From NCBI GenBank assembly GCA_021825865.1, contig JAKAFU010000019.1, positions 1-35,094 on the forward strand: a DNA stretch of 35,094 bases, in the 5' to 3' direction. The DNA comes from a bacterium (GTDB lineage Bacteria > SZUA-79 > Acidulodesulfobacterales > Acidulodesulfobacteraceae). Shown here piece by piece: positions 24,503 to 29,882 of this stretch (positions are counted from its first letter, which is position 1; every line of letters begins with the position of its first letter). The notes under the pieces were generated by a model. The model did not search any database. It was not told the origin of the DNA and saw nothing but the letters and a program-made list of their open reading frames with translations. Position numbers and translations under genes: made by a program.

Positions 24503-26062
24503 ATGTTAAACGCAAATTTAAATTTTAATATAAATATAACAGACGATATACATTTAAGCAGCCGTACAGCTATGCACTTATATGCAGCTTTCGGTAAAAT
24601 TGCGAAAGAGCACGGGTTTAAAATTTATATTGTAGGCGGTTTCGTTCGCGATTTACTAATTTATAAAATTTATAACAGTTATGAGATTTACGATAAATTA
24701 GAAAAACCGGTTGACATTGATATATGCGTGGAAGGAGATGCGATTAATTTTGCGGAAATATTAAGTAAGGAGTTATATAAATCCGAAAACGATATTTATA
24801 TTTATAATATCAAAAAACATGAACGATTTAAAACGGTAAGCATGGTTTTTTCCGGCATTCATGAAAATATTATTAATGTAGATTTTGCTTCAGCCCGCAA
24901 AGAGTTTTATGTTAAATCCGGAGCGCTTCCTTCGGTAAAATTTTCAGACTTGGAACATGATTTAATAAGGAGAGATTTTTCTATAAATGCTTTAGCGCTT
25001 AATTTAGGACCGGATAATTTTTTTAAAATCATAGATGAACATAATGGCGTGAGAGATATTTTAAGTAAAAAAATCAGGGTGCTGCACGATTTAAGTTTTA
25101 TAGACGACCCTACTAGAATCTTCAGAGCTGTGAGATTTGAAAAAAGATTAGGATTCAGGATTGAAAAAAACACTAAAAAATTATTAATAGACGCCCTGTC
25201 AAAAGGGGTAATTGATAATATCTCAGGAAAGAGAGTAAGCAATGAATTTAATTTAATTTTTCAAGAAAGCCGTCCTGAAATTTATTTTTTAAGGCTTGAA
25301 AGGCTTGGCGTACTGAAAAGCATTGATAAAGACTTAAAATTTACATCCGGCAATAAAAGAAATTTTGAAAAGATACGCAATTTTTATCAGTCAAATAAAG
25401 AAAAAATTAATACAATTAAAATAAATGATACGAAGATTAAAAATTTGAACACAATAAAAATAAATATAGAATTATTGTATTTAATGGAATTCTTGAGCAG
25501 ATTAAAAGATGAAAAAATACTTTCTATTCTTGAAAGATTAAACTTTGGCGAAAATATAAAAAAATTATTTTTATTAATAAAAGCGGAAATCAAATCTGTT
25601 AAAAAGGTTATCCGCATTATTGACAATATAGAAATAAATAATATACCCGATATAAATAAAATAGATACAAGTAATATAAATAATATAAATATAAGTAAGA
25701 CAGATATAAATAATGCGAATATCAATATTCATGCAGAAAGCAGTGCAAATTTTAAAAGCAGACTATATTTAGCTCTGAAACCTTTCAGTTTATATTCGAT
25801 TATTTTTTTTATAATGAGATATAATAATAAGGGTGATAGCGATATTAATAGAATTGCTCAATATTTAAAGATTTATCTTTTTGAAATTATTAATGTTAAG
25901 CTAGATATTTCAGGAGAAGACTTAAAAAAGCTGGGTTTTAAAGAAGGACAGGAGATCGGCAAAATTTTAAACAGGTTAAAGCTTTTAAAAATTGACGGCA
26001 TAATCAAAAGCAGGGAAGAAGAAATTGAATATATAAAAACTGAATATAATATTAAAATATAA
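24503..26062 (+). CDS. cca: CCA-adding-enzyme/poly(A) polymerase family tRNA nucleotidyltransferase
   Basis: Class II nucleotidyltransferase, 519 aa, adding CCA or part of it to tRNA 3' ends, or A tails to RNA. Head-domain motifs are GGFVRD (45-50), the metal pair DID (71-73), RRDFSINA (156-163) and DDPTRIFRAVRFEKRLGF (201-218), followed by the helical body. No HD domain is seen. Residues ~374-412 form an Asn/Ile/Asp-rich repeat-like stretch (NINNINISKT, DINNANINIH) inside the C-terminal half, where homologues have no conserved block. Whether it is a full CCA-, CC- or A-adding enzyme cannot be told. No ribosome site is clear before the ATG. pgi follows after a 247-bp gap holding a repeated RNA-like element. 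Confidence 0.85.
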   Translation: MLNANLNFNINITDDIHLSSRTAMHLYAAFGKIAKEHGFKIYIVGGFVRDLLIYKIYNSYEIYDKLEKPVDIDICVEGDAINFAEILSKELYKSENDIYIYNIKKHERFKTVSMVFSGIHENIINVDFASARKEFYVKSGALPSVKFSDLEHDLIRRDFSINALALNLGPDNFFKIIDEHNGVRDILSKKIRVLHDLSFIDDPTRIFRAVRFEKRLGFRIEKNTKKLLIDALSKGVIDNISGKRVSNEFNLIFQESRPEIYFLRLERLGVLKSIDKDLKFTSGNKRNFEKIRNFYQSNKEKINTIKINDTKIKNLNTIKINIELLYLMEFLSRLKDEKILSILERLNFGENIKKLFLLIKAEIKSVKKVIRIIDNIEINNIPDINKIDTSNINNINISKTDINNANINIHAESSANFKSRLYLALKPFSLYSIIFFIMRYNNKGDSDINRIAQYLKIYLFEIINVKLDISGEDLKKLGFKEGQEIGKILNRLKLLKIDGIIKSREEEIEYIKTEYNIKI

Positions 26063-26100
26063 TTAAATTAAATGTACTAGTTAACCATATTTACGAGTAT

Positions 26101-26124
26101 TAAGAGAAGGAATACTTTCTCTTA
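26101..26124. repeat. hairpin preceding repeat copy 1
   Basis: TAAGAGAA (26101-26108) and TTCTCTTA (26117-26124) form a perfect 8-bp stem with an 8-nt loop, 39 bp after the cca stop. No T-run follows. It stands 18 bp before the structured repeat. Confidence 0.5.
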
Positions 26125-26142
26125 TGGCAGGCAAAGTCAGAC

Positions 26143-26223
26143 GGATATTGTCCGCATCTGCCGACGATACCGGAAACGAAGTACGGCGAATTTCATCCCC
26201 TGTCTTTAGGCATGGGGAATATG
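26143..26223 (+). repeat. structured repeat element, copy 1
   Basis: This 81-nt patch is clearly richer in GC than its surroundings and is nearly repeated at 29804-29882. It can fold as three hairpins. P1 is GGAT-ATT-GTCC (26143-26153). P2 has CGACG (26162-26166), a bulged A, TAC, CG-GAAA-CG, a two-base AA bulge and GTACGGCG (26181-26188). P3 has CCCCTG (26197-26202) pairing with CA and GGGG (26211-26217) around one bulged T. In the first 48 nt only three bases differ from copy 2. Copy 1 lies 86 bp before pgi, on the same strand. The strand given is that of the described fold; transcription is not shown. Confidence 0.7.
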
Positions 26224-26309
26224 TCAAATAAGCGTGATATCGGCTAGTTCATAAAAAAAAGAAATTAACTGAATCTAATTAATAACTTTATTTACGGGAG
26301 GAGGTTTGC

Positions 26310-27668
26310 ATGGTAGAATTTAATTTCAAGTTTGCTTTGACGCCTGCGATTGGAGAGGGAGGTATTTCATATGGCGATATTAAATTATTAAAAGGCAAAT
26401 TGACCGATGCTAAAGGAAATTTAGAAAAATTAAGAAAAGACGGGGTTATCGGTCTATATGATGTTCCTGAAGACAGGCAGGTGGTTAAAGACATTAAAAA
26501 TATGGCGGAGAAATTTTTTTCAGACGGTATAAAAACATTATTTGTGTTCGGAATGGGCGGCTCTTCCCTTGGGGCTATTTTTCTTCAGAACGCTTTGAAG
26601 CAGACAATAGATAAGACCGTAAATAAAAAAATGAAGGTATTATTTTCTGAAAATATTGACCCTGCCTATTTAAGTAATAATATTGAAAAATTAAACCTTG
26701 ATGAAACTTTATTCTGTTTTGTTTCAAAGTCCGGCAGTACTATAGAAGTAGTATCCCAATTTTTTATTATAAAAGAAAAGTTGGAAAATAAATTTAAAGA
26801 CGGTTATAAAGAGCATATGATTTTTATAACCGATAAAAAAAGCGGTTTTTTAAGAAATTTTGCCGATGAAAATAATATTTCAGTTCTGGATATTGCTGCG
26901 AATGTTGGCGGCAGATATTCGATAATTACCGCAGGGAGCTTATTTCCGGCTTACTGTATGGGTTTAGACATCGATGAATTTTTAAACGGCGTAATTTCCG
27001 CCAGAAACAATATACTGGCTAAAGAACCTTTAGATGCTAATCCGGTTTATACCGCTGCATCTATAATATATCTTTACTATACTCAAAGAAAACGTAATAT
27101 GTTTCTTATTGATACGTATGGCGATTATCTGAATGAATTTGGAAGATGGTTTAGACAATTATTCGCGGAAAGTCTCGGTAAGGATTTAAAGTCGCCCACG
27201 CCTGTAAAAGCGACGGGAGCAACAGACCAGCACTCGCAATTGCAGCTTTATATGGACGGACCGCAAGACAAACTGTCATGTTTTATATGTCTTAAAGATT
27301 ATGGATTTGATTATAATATTAATTCTAAAGGTTTTGAAAAGTATGCTTATCTAAACGGTAAAAAACTTTCGGAATTACTATTGAATGAACTGAGCGGCGT
27401 TGAGCTGGCGCTTGCGATGAAGGGCAGACCGTCCTTCAGGATTACGGTAGACAAAATCAATGAATTTACAATGGGCGAACTCTCTTTTATCTGCATGGAA
27501 ATGGTACCTGTGCTCGGAAATTTGCTTGAAATTAATCCTTTTGACCAGCCGGGCGTCGAAAAAGGCAAAAAATTTGCCTATCTTCTTATGGGCAGAACCG
27601 ACAGTTCTTTTGCATCGGAAATGGAAGAACTTAAAAGATTGCAAAAAATTGAAGATGTTGCATTTTAA
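26310..27668 (+). CDS. pgi: glucose-6-phosphate isomerase
   Basis: Interconverts glucose-6-phosphate and fructose-6-phosphate in the cytoplasm; 452 aa, the shorter Bacillus/Thermotoga-like form. Motifs seen are FGMGGSSLGA (80-89), SKSGSTIEV (139-147), the signature GGRYSIITAGSLFP (200-213), catalytic Glu287 (FAESLGKD), His308 (TDQHSQLQ) and the C-terminal Lys418 (GVEKGK). The ATG is set by a very strong GGGAGGAGG site at 26296-26304. It lies downstream of the structured repeat copy 1, and no clear promoter hexamers were found in that gap. miaA follows after 27 bp. Confidence 0.95.
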   Translation: MVEFNFKFALTPAIGEGGISYGDIKLLKGKLTDAKGNLEKLRKDGVIGLYDVPEDRQVVKDIKNMAEKFFSDGIKTLFVFGMGGSSLGAIFLQNALKQTIDKTVNKKMKVLFSENIDPAYLSNNIEKLNLDETLFCFVSKSGSTIEVVSQFFIIKEKLENKFKDGYKEHMIFITDKKSGFLRNFADENNISVLDIAANVGGRYSIITAGSLFPAYCMGLDIDEFLNGVISARNNILAKEPLDANPVYTAASIIYLYYTQRKRNMFLIDTYGDYLNEFGRWFRQLFAESLGKDLKSPTPVKATGATDQHSQLQLYMDGPQDKLSCFICLKDYGFDYNINSKGFEKYAYLNGKKLSELLLNELSGVELALAMKGRPSFRITVDKINEFTMGELSFICMEMVPVLGNLLEINPFDQPGVEKGKKFAYLLMGRTDSSFASEMEELKRLQKIEDVAF

Positions 27669-27695
27669 ATATTAAGAATTCGAATTAATTTTTTA

Positions 27696-28640
27696 ATGGA
27701 TAACAGCAAAAAACAAAAAATAGTTATTTTAGGAGGTCCGACGTGCTCCGGTAAGACAGGTTCTTCTATGAGTTTAGCGCAAATTTATCCTTTGGAGGTT
27801 GTAAATTATGATTCGCTGTGTTTTTATAAATATTTTGACATAGGCAGCGCTAAACCTGAGAAGTCAAATACTTTAACGGTAAAGCACCATCTTATCGATA
27901 TAAAATTTCCAGATGAAAGTTATAATGCTTTTGATTTTTCTAACGACGCTTCGTCGGCGATTTTAAACATTATAAATAACGGCGGCCTGCCGTTATTTGC
28001 AGGTGGAACAGGGTTATATACAAGAGCTTTAATTTATGGATTATCGCCTATCCCTGCGTTCTCCGGCGGCGAAATCAGAAAAAAGCTATCCGAGTCAATT
28101 AAAAAAGAAGGCACGCAGAAACTTTATGAAAAATTAAGAGAAGTTGACCCTGAATATGCCATGAAAATTTCTTCTAACGATAAGAGCAGAATAATTAGGG
28201 CGATGGAAGTTTTTTACCATACCGGTAAACCGCTGTCGTATTTTATTAATTTAAATCCTTTTAAAGAACCGGCTTATGATTTTATAAATATTATTTTTAT
28301 ACCGAACAGAGAAATTTTAAGAAAAAGAATTGAAGAGCGGACAAAAAATATAATACATCACGGTTTAATAGAGGAAACGGAAAAAATTCTTAATATGGGC
28401 TACAGTTCTGATTTAAAACCGTTTAATTCTATAGGATATAAAGAAACGCTGATGTATTTAAACGGCGTTATACCGTCTAAAAACGAACTTTATTCTGAAA
28501 TAGTTAAAGCAACAATGCAATATGCAAAAAGACAGATAACGTGGTTTAAAAAATCAATGAATGCTGTTTTTATTGAAACTGTAAATGAAGGTGAAAGATT
28601 AAGTATTATTAAGAAAAATATAGATATTTTTTTGGCATGA
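27696..28640 (+). CDS. miaA: tRNA dimethylallyltransferase
   Basis: Transfers a dimethylallyl group from DMAPP to A37 of tRNAs reading UNN codons, 314 aa. The P-loop is GPTCSGKT (14-21). NYDSLCFYKYFDIGSAKP (37-54) is the family's DSxQxY...IGTAKP block, with the catalytic Asp39 kept but the usual Gln replaced by Cys42. HHLIDI (64-69) and GGTGLYTRALIYGL follow. DMAPP would come from the MEP pathway that ends with IspH, also in this window. hflX follows after 46 bp; miaA-hflX adjacency is common in bacteria. Confidence 0.94.
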   Translation: MDNSKKQKIVILGGPTCSGKTGSSMSLAQIYPLEVVNYDSLCFYKYFDIGSAKPEKSNTLTVKHHLIDIKFPDESYNAFDFSNDASSAILNIINNGGLPLFAGGTGLYTRALIYGLSPIPAFSGGEIRKKLSESIKKEGTQKLYEKLREVDPEYAMKISSNDKSRIIRAMEVFYHTGKPLSYFINLNPFKEPAYDFINIIFIPNREILRKRIEERTKNIIHHGLIEETEKILNMGYSSDLKPFNSIGYKETLMYLNGVIPSKNELYSEIVKATMQYAKRQITWFKKSMNAVFIETVNEGERLSIIKKNIDIFLA

Positions 28641-28686
28641 CTTAATATAACCGTATATAACTTAACTTTTTAGTCAGAATTATTAT

Positions 28687-29769
28687 ATGGAAAAAGCGTT
28701 TTTGGTCGGAATTAACACGGGGAAAAAAGAATTAAGTTTAGATTCGCTGGAAGAGCTCGGTATGCTTTCAAAAACTGCCGGGGCAGTAAATATAGGGCAG
28801 GTTTTAAAAAATGTTAAAACGATTAATCCTGCTTATTACATAACAAAAGGTATGGCTGACGAATTGAAAGAGATAATACAGTCTAACGATGCAGACATAG
28901 TTTTATTTGATGCCGATCTTTCGCCTGCTCAAGAAAGAAATTTATCCGATTTTTTTGAAGTAAATGTTTTAGACAGAACGAGGATTATTCTTGATATATT
29001 TGCAACCCGCGCCAAAACGGCTGAAGGCAAATTGCAGGTTGAGCTGGCTTTGTTGCAATATATTTTGCCCAGACTTAAAGGAAGCGCCGATATGCTTTCA
29101 AGAACAGGGGCGGGTATAGGAACGCGGGGTCCGGGAGAAACTAAATTAGAAACAGATAGAAGAAAAATCAGACTTAAAATAAAACATATTAAAGATAAAC
29201 TTGAGCTTGCCAAAAAAACTCGTTCTTTGCAGAGACTTAAGAGAGGAAAACAAAGGTTGGACACCGTTACGCTTGCGGGTTATACTAACTCTGGAAAAAC
29301 TACGCTTTTGCAAGCGCTGACACATTCTAAAGCACATGGCGAAGATAAACTCTTTGCCACTCTCGGCACAAAGATGGAGGCGATGCATGATAAAAACGGG
29401 AACAAAAAAGTTATTATATCCGATACTGTAGGTTTTATACAAAATTTACCGCTATTGTTAATAGAATCGTTCAAATCTACTTTGGAAGAAGCGGTATTCT
29501 CTTCGCTTTTAGTTCATGTCGTTGACCCCTCACAAAATGGAGCAATTGCAAAAGCCGAGGAGGTTATTAAGATTTTAGAAAAAATAGGTGCCGGAGAAAA
29601 TAAAATCATAACCGCATTAAATAAAGTAGACCTTATACCGCGAGAACAGGCAGATTATCTAAAAAATAAATTTGAACAAATCACAGGTGGTATAGTTGTA
29701 CCGGTATCGGCTAAAAAAGGTATTAATTTGAATTTGCTTAAGGATTCAATTTTTCAGGCTCTGAGATAA
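28687..29769 (+). CDS. hflX: ribosome-associated GTPase HflX
   Basis: GTPase that binds the large ribosomal subunit and rescues or splits stalled ribosomes, notably in heat stress; 360 aa. The N-terminal HflX domain (1-~180) ends in the family block GTRGPGETKLETDRRKIR (145-162) and a coiled-coil helix. The G domain has G1 GYTNSGKT (198-205, where many have GKS), G3 DTVG (246-249), G4 NKVD (312-315) and G5 SAKKG. It lacks the extra C-terminal domain of the E. coli protein. It is the last gene of the + strand run before a convergent gene. A perfect 10-bp inverted repeat stands 13 bp after its stop. Confidence 0.95.
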   Translation: MEKAFLVGINTGKKELSLDSLEELGMLSKTAGAVNIGQVLKNVKTINPAYYITKGMADELKEIIQSNDADIVLFDADLSPAQERNLSDFFEVNVLDRTRIILDIFATRAKTAEGKLQVELALLQYILPRLKGSADMLSRTGAGIGTRGPGETKLETDRRKIRLKIKHIKDKLELAKKTRSLQRLKRGKQRLDTVTLAGYTNSGKTTLLQALTHSKAHGEDKLFATLGTKMEAMHDKNGNKKVIISDTVGFIQNLPLLLIESFKSTLEEAVFSSLLVHVVDPSQNGAIAKAEEVIKILEKIGAGENKIITALNKVDLIPREQADYLKNKFEQITGGIVVPVSAKKGINLNLLKDSIFQALR

Positions 29770-29782
29770 AACTTAGATAATG

Positions 29783-29804
29783 CATGTAATATTTATATTA
29801 CATG
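29783..29804. repeat. perfect 10-bp inverted repeat after hflX
   Basis: CATGTAATAT (29783-29792) and ATATTACATG (29795-29804) form a stem with only TT between. It could mark the 3' end of the hflX transcript although no T-run follows. Its last base is the first base of structured repeat copy 2. Confidence 0.6.
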
Positions 29805-29882
29805 GACATTGTCCGCATTTGCCGCCGATACCGGAAACGAAGTACGGCGAAGCCCATCCTTGCTTTAGCAATGGGGAGTATG
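29804..29882 (+). repeat. structured repeat element, copy 2
   Basis: 79-nt counterpart of the element at 26143-26223. P1 is GGAC-ATT-GTCC (29804-29814). P2 has CGCCG (29823-29827), bulged A, TAC, CG-GAAA-CG, AA bulge and GTACGGCG (29842-29849), with every stem position paired. P3 pairs CCCA (29853-29856) and TTGC (29860-29863) with GCAA and TGGG (29868-29875) around a TTTA loop. It lies between two convergent genes, where a cis-acting leader for a following gene is not expected. Confidence 0.7.

Follow-up and report, generated by a model that had tools for sequence, protein, structure and literature searches.

A repeated hairpin element in an Acidulodesulfobacteraceae genome as a gene-less IS608-type insertion with a nested 20-nt repeat

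Two patches on the forward strand of a bacterial contig, both intergenic, are alike in sequence and can each be drawn as three hairpins. Are they copies of a structured RNA, or of a sequence that was inserted? A first-pass annotation of the window, i.e., the whole stretch of 35,094 nt analyzed here, had placed one copy at 26143–26223 with hairpins P1, P2 and P3 and had suggested a structured small RNA, a riboswitch-like element or a REP/MITE-like dispersed repeat. We find that both patches are copies of an IS200/IS605-family (IS608-type) mini-transposon that carries no genes.

The repeat pair and its insertion sites

In a self-comparison of the window, 26143–26198 aligned with 29804–29859 at 89% identity over 56 nt. 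The first 48 bases of the two patches have 45 in common and differ at 3; the two-copy repeat is hence genuine. Single-sequence folding energies of the two copies were unremarkable (z −1.8 and −1.6). Moreover, Rfam covariance models, riboswitches included, gave no match to the element. A poly(A)-polymerase-like gene and a phosphoglucose isomerase gene flank copy 1, which is upstream of the latter; copy 2 follows an HflX-type GTPase gene, between convergent ORFs. The gene order at 24503–29769 is poly(A)-polymerase-like, phosphoglucose isomerase, MiaA-type IPP transferase and HflX-type GTPase, with the two copies at its first junction and after its last gene. A perfect 20-nt palindrome (ATGTAATATTTATATTACAT-like hairpin, 29782–29803) adjoins copy 2 on the left.

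At the copy 1 locus the element was absent from the orthologous interval in five genus relatives, and in a sixth the sequence stops at a contig end. Copy 2 was absent from its locus in six relatives. Excision of 26095–26227 scored joint best of 3,250 intervals against the empty orthologue of relative G005, tied with one other interval (204 versus 99 unexcised). The junctions of copy 1, marked ^, read ..ATATTTAC^GAGTATTA...TATGTCAA^ATAAG.., i.e., compared with the empty G005 site the insertion lies directly 3′ of TTAC and is without target duplication. The right-end hairpin is followed by TCAA in copy 1 and in nearly all relatives. The interval annotated before is a part of copy 1: it starts to the right of the true left end, 26095, and stops four bases short of 26227 (Table 1).

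Table 1. Features of the two element copies in the window
Feature	Position	Strand	Evidence
TTAC, target tetranucleotide left of copy 1	26091..26094	+	sequence; joint-best excision against the empty G005 orthologue starts directly after it
Copy 1, 133 bp, IS608-type element without ORF (tnpB tail and right end)	26095..26227	+	empty orthologous sites, excision test, homology to the L164 tnpB tail
Hairpin A (AAGAGAAG../..CTTTCTCTT), left hairpin of the tnpB tail	26102..26123	+	92.2% of cells paired, 17 copies
tnpB reading-frame remnant, REGILSLMAGKVRRILSASADDTG	26103..26177	+	BLASTP to the L164 TnpB tail
Hairpin B with apical hairpin 26142–26154 (P1)	26130..26162	+	covariation
20-nt insert ACGAAGTACGGCGAATTTCA nested between GGAA and TCC, which gave rise to the false P2	26176..26195	+	lacking in the intact tnpB tail and in most relatives
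Hairpin C, right-end hairpin (P3)	26197..26217	+	90.7% of cells paired, covariation
TCAA, right cleavage site of copy 1	26224..26227	+	sequence; identical to IS608 CR (PMC5934647)
TTAC left of copy 2	29798..29801	+	sequence; exact end not fixed by alignment
Copy 2, shorter, decayed, without hairpin A, ending in GCAA not TCAA	29802..29885	+	sequence; locus empty in six relatives
Apical hairpin of B in copy 2 (GGACATTGTCC)	29804..29814	+	sequence, 17-copy structure comparison
Nested 20-nt insert in copy 2, ACGAAGTACGGCGAAGCCCA	29837..29856	+	sequence, comparison with relatives
Right-end hairpin C in copy 2	29858..29876	+	sequence, 17-copy structure comparison

The tnpB tail and its hairpins

In one relative (locus L164, G013:C38:11000-16500) a tnpB gene has the element sequence as its 3′ end. 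The encoded protein piece has Cas12f1-like TNB and OrfB_IS605 domains. The gene contains one in-frame stop further upstream; it ends in ..REGTSSLGVGRVRPAMRASAVDTRILLL, its stop codon lies within the right-end hairpin, and the DNA continues to ..AGTATGTCAA. In the same frame copy 1 still reads REGILSLMAGKVRRILSASADDT, which is 57% identical over 23 aa to the L164 TnpB tail (BLASTP, E 4e-6). A coding match across the element, which the first-pass annotation had named as evidence against its own proposal, is thus present: the tnpB tail spans most of it. L164 also holds all four IS608 tetranucleotides, i.e., TTAC, AAAG, GAAT and TCAA, with a left end ATTAC^TGACAATTGCCGTAAAG-CCCCTTGC.. and a right end CCAGAAT-CC..hairpin..TATGTCAA.

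Of 30 family genomes, 12 hold the tnpB tail, in most cases with no tnpB and at up to 12 matches per genome. Among the family genomes searched, a full TnpB with a tail of the copy 1 type was found only in G013; the only TnpB of the window's genome (G000) belongs to another lineage and has another right end. A Y1 transposase was not found in G000, a genome 90.5% complete, and is present in the genus relatives G001, G002, G003 and G006; a non-autonomous copy would not need one in cis. Left boundaries vary between copies. Three minimal copies (L299, L306, L315) start directly after TTAC, a tetranucleotide with a frequency of 0.0032 per position there, and L287 (~170 bp) combines both ends with the tail and contains no ORF. 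Two other copies carry different palindromic inserts (L312:1501-1623 and L290:1418-1575, both reverse strand), at the apical-hairpin loop and near the GAATCC site.

Further copies in related genomes and covariation in their alignment, both named beforehand as tests, were found. The alignment of 17 copies comprises three hairpins with the stems AGAGAAG/CTTCTCT (A), GGCA../..TGCC (B) and the right end (C). P1 (GGAYATTGTCC) is the tip of B and P3 (CCCC..TTTA..GGGG) is C, and these two parts of the three-hairpin drawing covary, while P2 is not kept. Pairing in A, B and C together amounted to 92.0% of cells, compared with 82.0% in shuffled alignments and 43–49% with slid partners; covariation was 0.306 versus 0.143 and was reached in 0 of 500 shuffles. 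One pair of A is altered on both sides among the 17 copies, and four of the five apical pairs in the tip of B are so altered in some copies. RNAalifold independently recovered B, its tip and C, and did not predict A.

Could the element then be a cis-regulatory RNA or an independent small RNA with three hairpins, as its covarying stems and the place of copy 1 upstream of a gene might suggest? Its orthologous loci are empty, which refutes a conserved regulatory locus, most of it matches a coding sequence, P2 is not conserved, Rfam holds no match and no common downstream gene exists. We consider this reading extremely improbable. Riboswitch and small RNA were rejected on the empty loci, the coding match and the lack of an Rfam match, and the structured-RNA suggestion survives solely as a tnpB tail that encodes guide RNA. 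The suggestion of a REP/MITE-like dispersed repeat was right, since the element derives from IS200/IS605, contains no ORF and is present many times over in the genus.

TnpB guide RNA is known to consist of the tnpB tail, the right end and ~16 nt of flank, with the insertion target as TAM (PMC8612924). The hairpin covariation fits this origin, and by analogy the retained tnpB 3′ tail would encode the scaffold of a TnpB guide RNA. Solo copies might hence be kept as a guide RNA supply for a TnpB acting in trans, which would cut the donor joint left empty (TTAC joined to the right flank) and so restore the element after excision, and that scaffold hairpins covary in copies without tnpB speaks for this. 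However, a matching TnpB is lacking in the window's genome, a nested insert sits within the scaffold, and the hairpins may persist only as DNA for TnpA or by inheritance; the covariation may stem from tnpB-bearing ancestors and not from solo copies. We regard a guide supply in trans as unlikely.

A 20-nt block within the element and elsewhere in bacteria

P2 can be drawn in both window copies, yet it behaved like its shuffled controls. In the 10 copies that hold the sequence, pairing was 78.0% versus 77.5% and covariation 0.182 versus 0.168, and the minimum-energy fold of copy 1 does not adopt P2. One of its sides is a 20-nt block, ACGAAGTACRGCGAAGCTCA in most copies, that interrupts GAA^TCC; L164 and about ten other copies lack it and read ..CCAGAATCC.. 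or near it. P2 is the tnpB tail paired with this nested insert, and pair counts together with the lack of one side in most relatives rule it out as a real stem. As the block splits the right-end guide GAAT, we conclude that the window copies are probably immobile now.

The block might instead be original to the element and deleted in relatives, with P2 a true stem lost elsewhere. A similar stretch (CTCGAAGAGCAGCGAAGCTC) does occur in right ends of another IS605-like family group (L010, L017, L025). In contrast, the intact tnpB tail lacks the block, the same block precedes TCC in REP-like repeats and in tRNA-Ser, which reads as a normal tRNA once the block is removed, and unrelated lineages carry it beside empty copies of a host repeat. 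An original block is therefore very unlikely, and we treat it as an insert. The right ends of the group mentioned (reverse strand, near 1497–1550) carry the related double-minihairpin stretch as CTCGAAGAGCAGCGAAGC. A tnpB with a zinc-ribbon domain was not found in G004.

The ORF-less element is of a known kind and well explained; the nested 20-nt dispersed repeat is the more surprising part. It has the form of two tandem GNA-triloop minihairpins, [RAC-GNA-GTY]C[AGC-GNA-GCT]NA, and occurs in 19 of 30 family genomes, with no match of the reversed-pattern control. When one genome per species was searched for exact matches, Hymenobacter, Candidatus Parabeggiatoa, Flavobacterium and Sphingobium also proved to carry it. 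The 20-mer nearly always precedes (A)TCC; the exact search pattern itself fixed the ATCC, and its matches mostly follow AA. Loci outside the family (L167-L242, e.g., L199, L171, L168, L204) are usually inside other dispersed repeats, and in Parabeggiatoa the 20-mer lies beside empty copies of a host repeat.

Within the family, the 20-mer sits in REP-like repeats (..GCGGGAA^TCCAG), loops of other IS605-like right ends, tRNA-Ser(GCT), tRNA-Ser(CGA), there in both the variable region and the T-loop, and apparent 3′ tRNA fragments. When it is left out of tRNA-Ser(CGA) in silico, a normal tRNA is restored. The tRNA-Ser(CGA) genes of L119 and L120 (reverse strand, ~1450–1525) have two inserts each, and near the L119 gene is a further copy from which the stretch between the two inserts was lost. 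The tRNA-like 3′ fragments of L103, L110, L113, L126, L146 and L149 have the 20-mer in the T-loop. Some such fragments are followed by a common AAAACCGCAG..AAATAAGCC motif and are perhaps attachment sites of an integrative element. We do not propose that the 20-mer is a spliced tRNA intron, since its removal gives a whole tRNA only for the tRNA-Ser of L023, L119 and L120 and the others look like 3′ fragments.

The loop base of the minihairpins varies and their stems change on both sides (AAC/GTT, GAC/GTC, AAT/ATT, ACC/GGT), a support that comes from the wider set, whose search patterns predetermine some of the bases; among the ten transposon copies, minihairpin covariation did not exceed that of shuffles. 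Hairpins of the type d(GCGNAGC) are unusually stable. Folded as DNA with standard parameters, which may give no bonus to GNA loops, the 20-mer had weak energies and was no stabler than its shuffles. The 20-mer was not found in viral contigs, and a literature search for its sequence returned no relevant description. The carriers G000, G019, G099 and G102 gave no Y1_Tnp match, and mobilization by a Y1/RAYT enzyme is unsupported because several carriers lack a Y1 gene. We tentatively suggest, as a possibility that falls short of an even chance, that the 20-mer is an independent, tiny mobile unit that prefers AA^TCC sites, enters tRNA genes, REPs and transposon ends across several unrelated bacterial lineages and perhaps moves as ssDNA via its minihairpins.

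Proposed origin and likeness to known systems

The element is very probably a non-autonomous IS608-type insertion of the IS200/IS605 family (PATE/MITE) that consists of a tnpB 3′ tail and right end only. It is short, ORF-less and multi-copy, and its ends are common with an autonomous element. Against this origin speak the lack of an AAAG beside the left hairpin of copy 1, the variation in left boundaries, the negative search of G000 for a Y1 transposase, its TnpB of another lineage, the tied excision interval and the in-frame stop in the L164 tnpB. Most likely a Y1 transposase acting in trans moved the element as single-stranded DNA. It would have been joined 3′ of TTAC, leaving TCAA at the right end and no target duplication, and the second dispersed repeat with its two GNA minihairpins would then have entered at GAA^TCC. 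A TnpB could still make use of the retained scaffold, guided by the right flank.

An apparent orphan RNA hence becomes an insertion with a known mechanism. The natural set of tnpB-less copies with a covarying guide-RNA scaffold is useful for asking whether non-autonomous IS605 elements borrow TnpB. If the proposal for the nested 20-mer is true, it matters more: a tiny sequence that recurs at one and the same target, in tRNA genes as well as repeats and across several unrelated lineages, would need a mobilizing activity, and the 20-mer would be among the smallest mobile units known.

For the 20-mer, the nearest likeness is to the small dispersed repeats (SDR) of Nostoc, reportedly described by Elhai et al. 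(2008). Like these, the 20-mer is very small and dispersed, and its insertions lie within RNA genes and repeats of other kinds; in contrast, it has another sequence and architecture, i.e., a double GNA minihairpin before ATCC, and occurs in several phyla.

The element itself compares with IS608 of Helicobacter pylori, which inserts precisely 3′ of TTAC, has TCAA as right cleavage site and carries the guides AAAG and GAAT before its end hairpins (PMC5934647). TTAC insertion and a TCAA right end are common to both, and AAAG and GAAT precede the end hairpins of the full-length relative L164. Unlike IS608, the window copies have no ORFs, copy 1 misses the left AAAG guide before its hairpin, and the GAAT is split. 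The PATE-like IS605 element of Halanaerobium hydrogeniformans carries a left and a right end together with the final 58 nt of tnpB (PMC7290912), and is likewise ends-only with the last part of tnpB and a whole right end. However, that PATE has a canonical left-end hairpin, whereas the left hairpin of copy 1 comes from the tnpB tail, and the element described here is present in many copies and with a nested repeat. Like the reRNA/omegaRNA of the ISDra2 TnpB (PMC8612924), the element's predicted scaffold stems from the tnpB 3′ end and right end and is structured, and the downstream flank would be the guide; unlike it, the element has no adjoining tnpB, and its target is TTAC compared with TTGAT.
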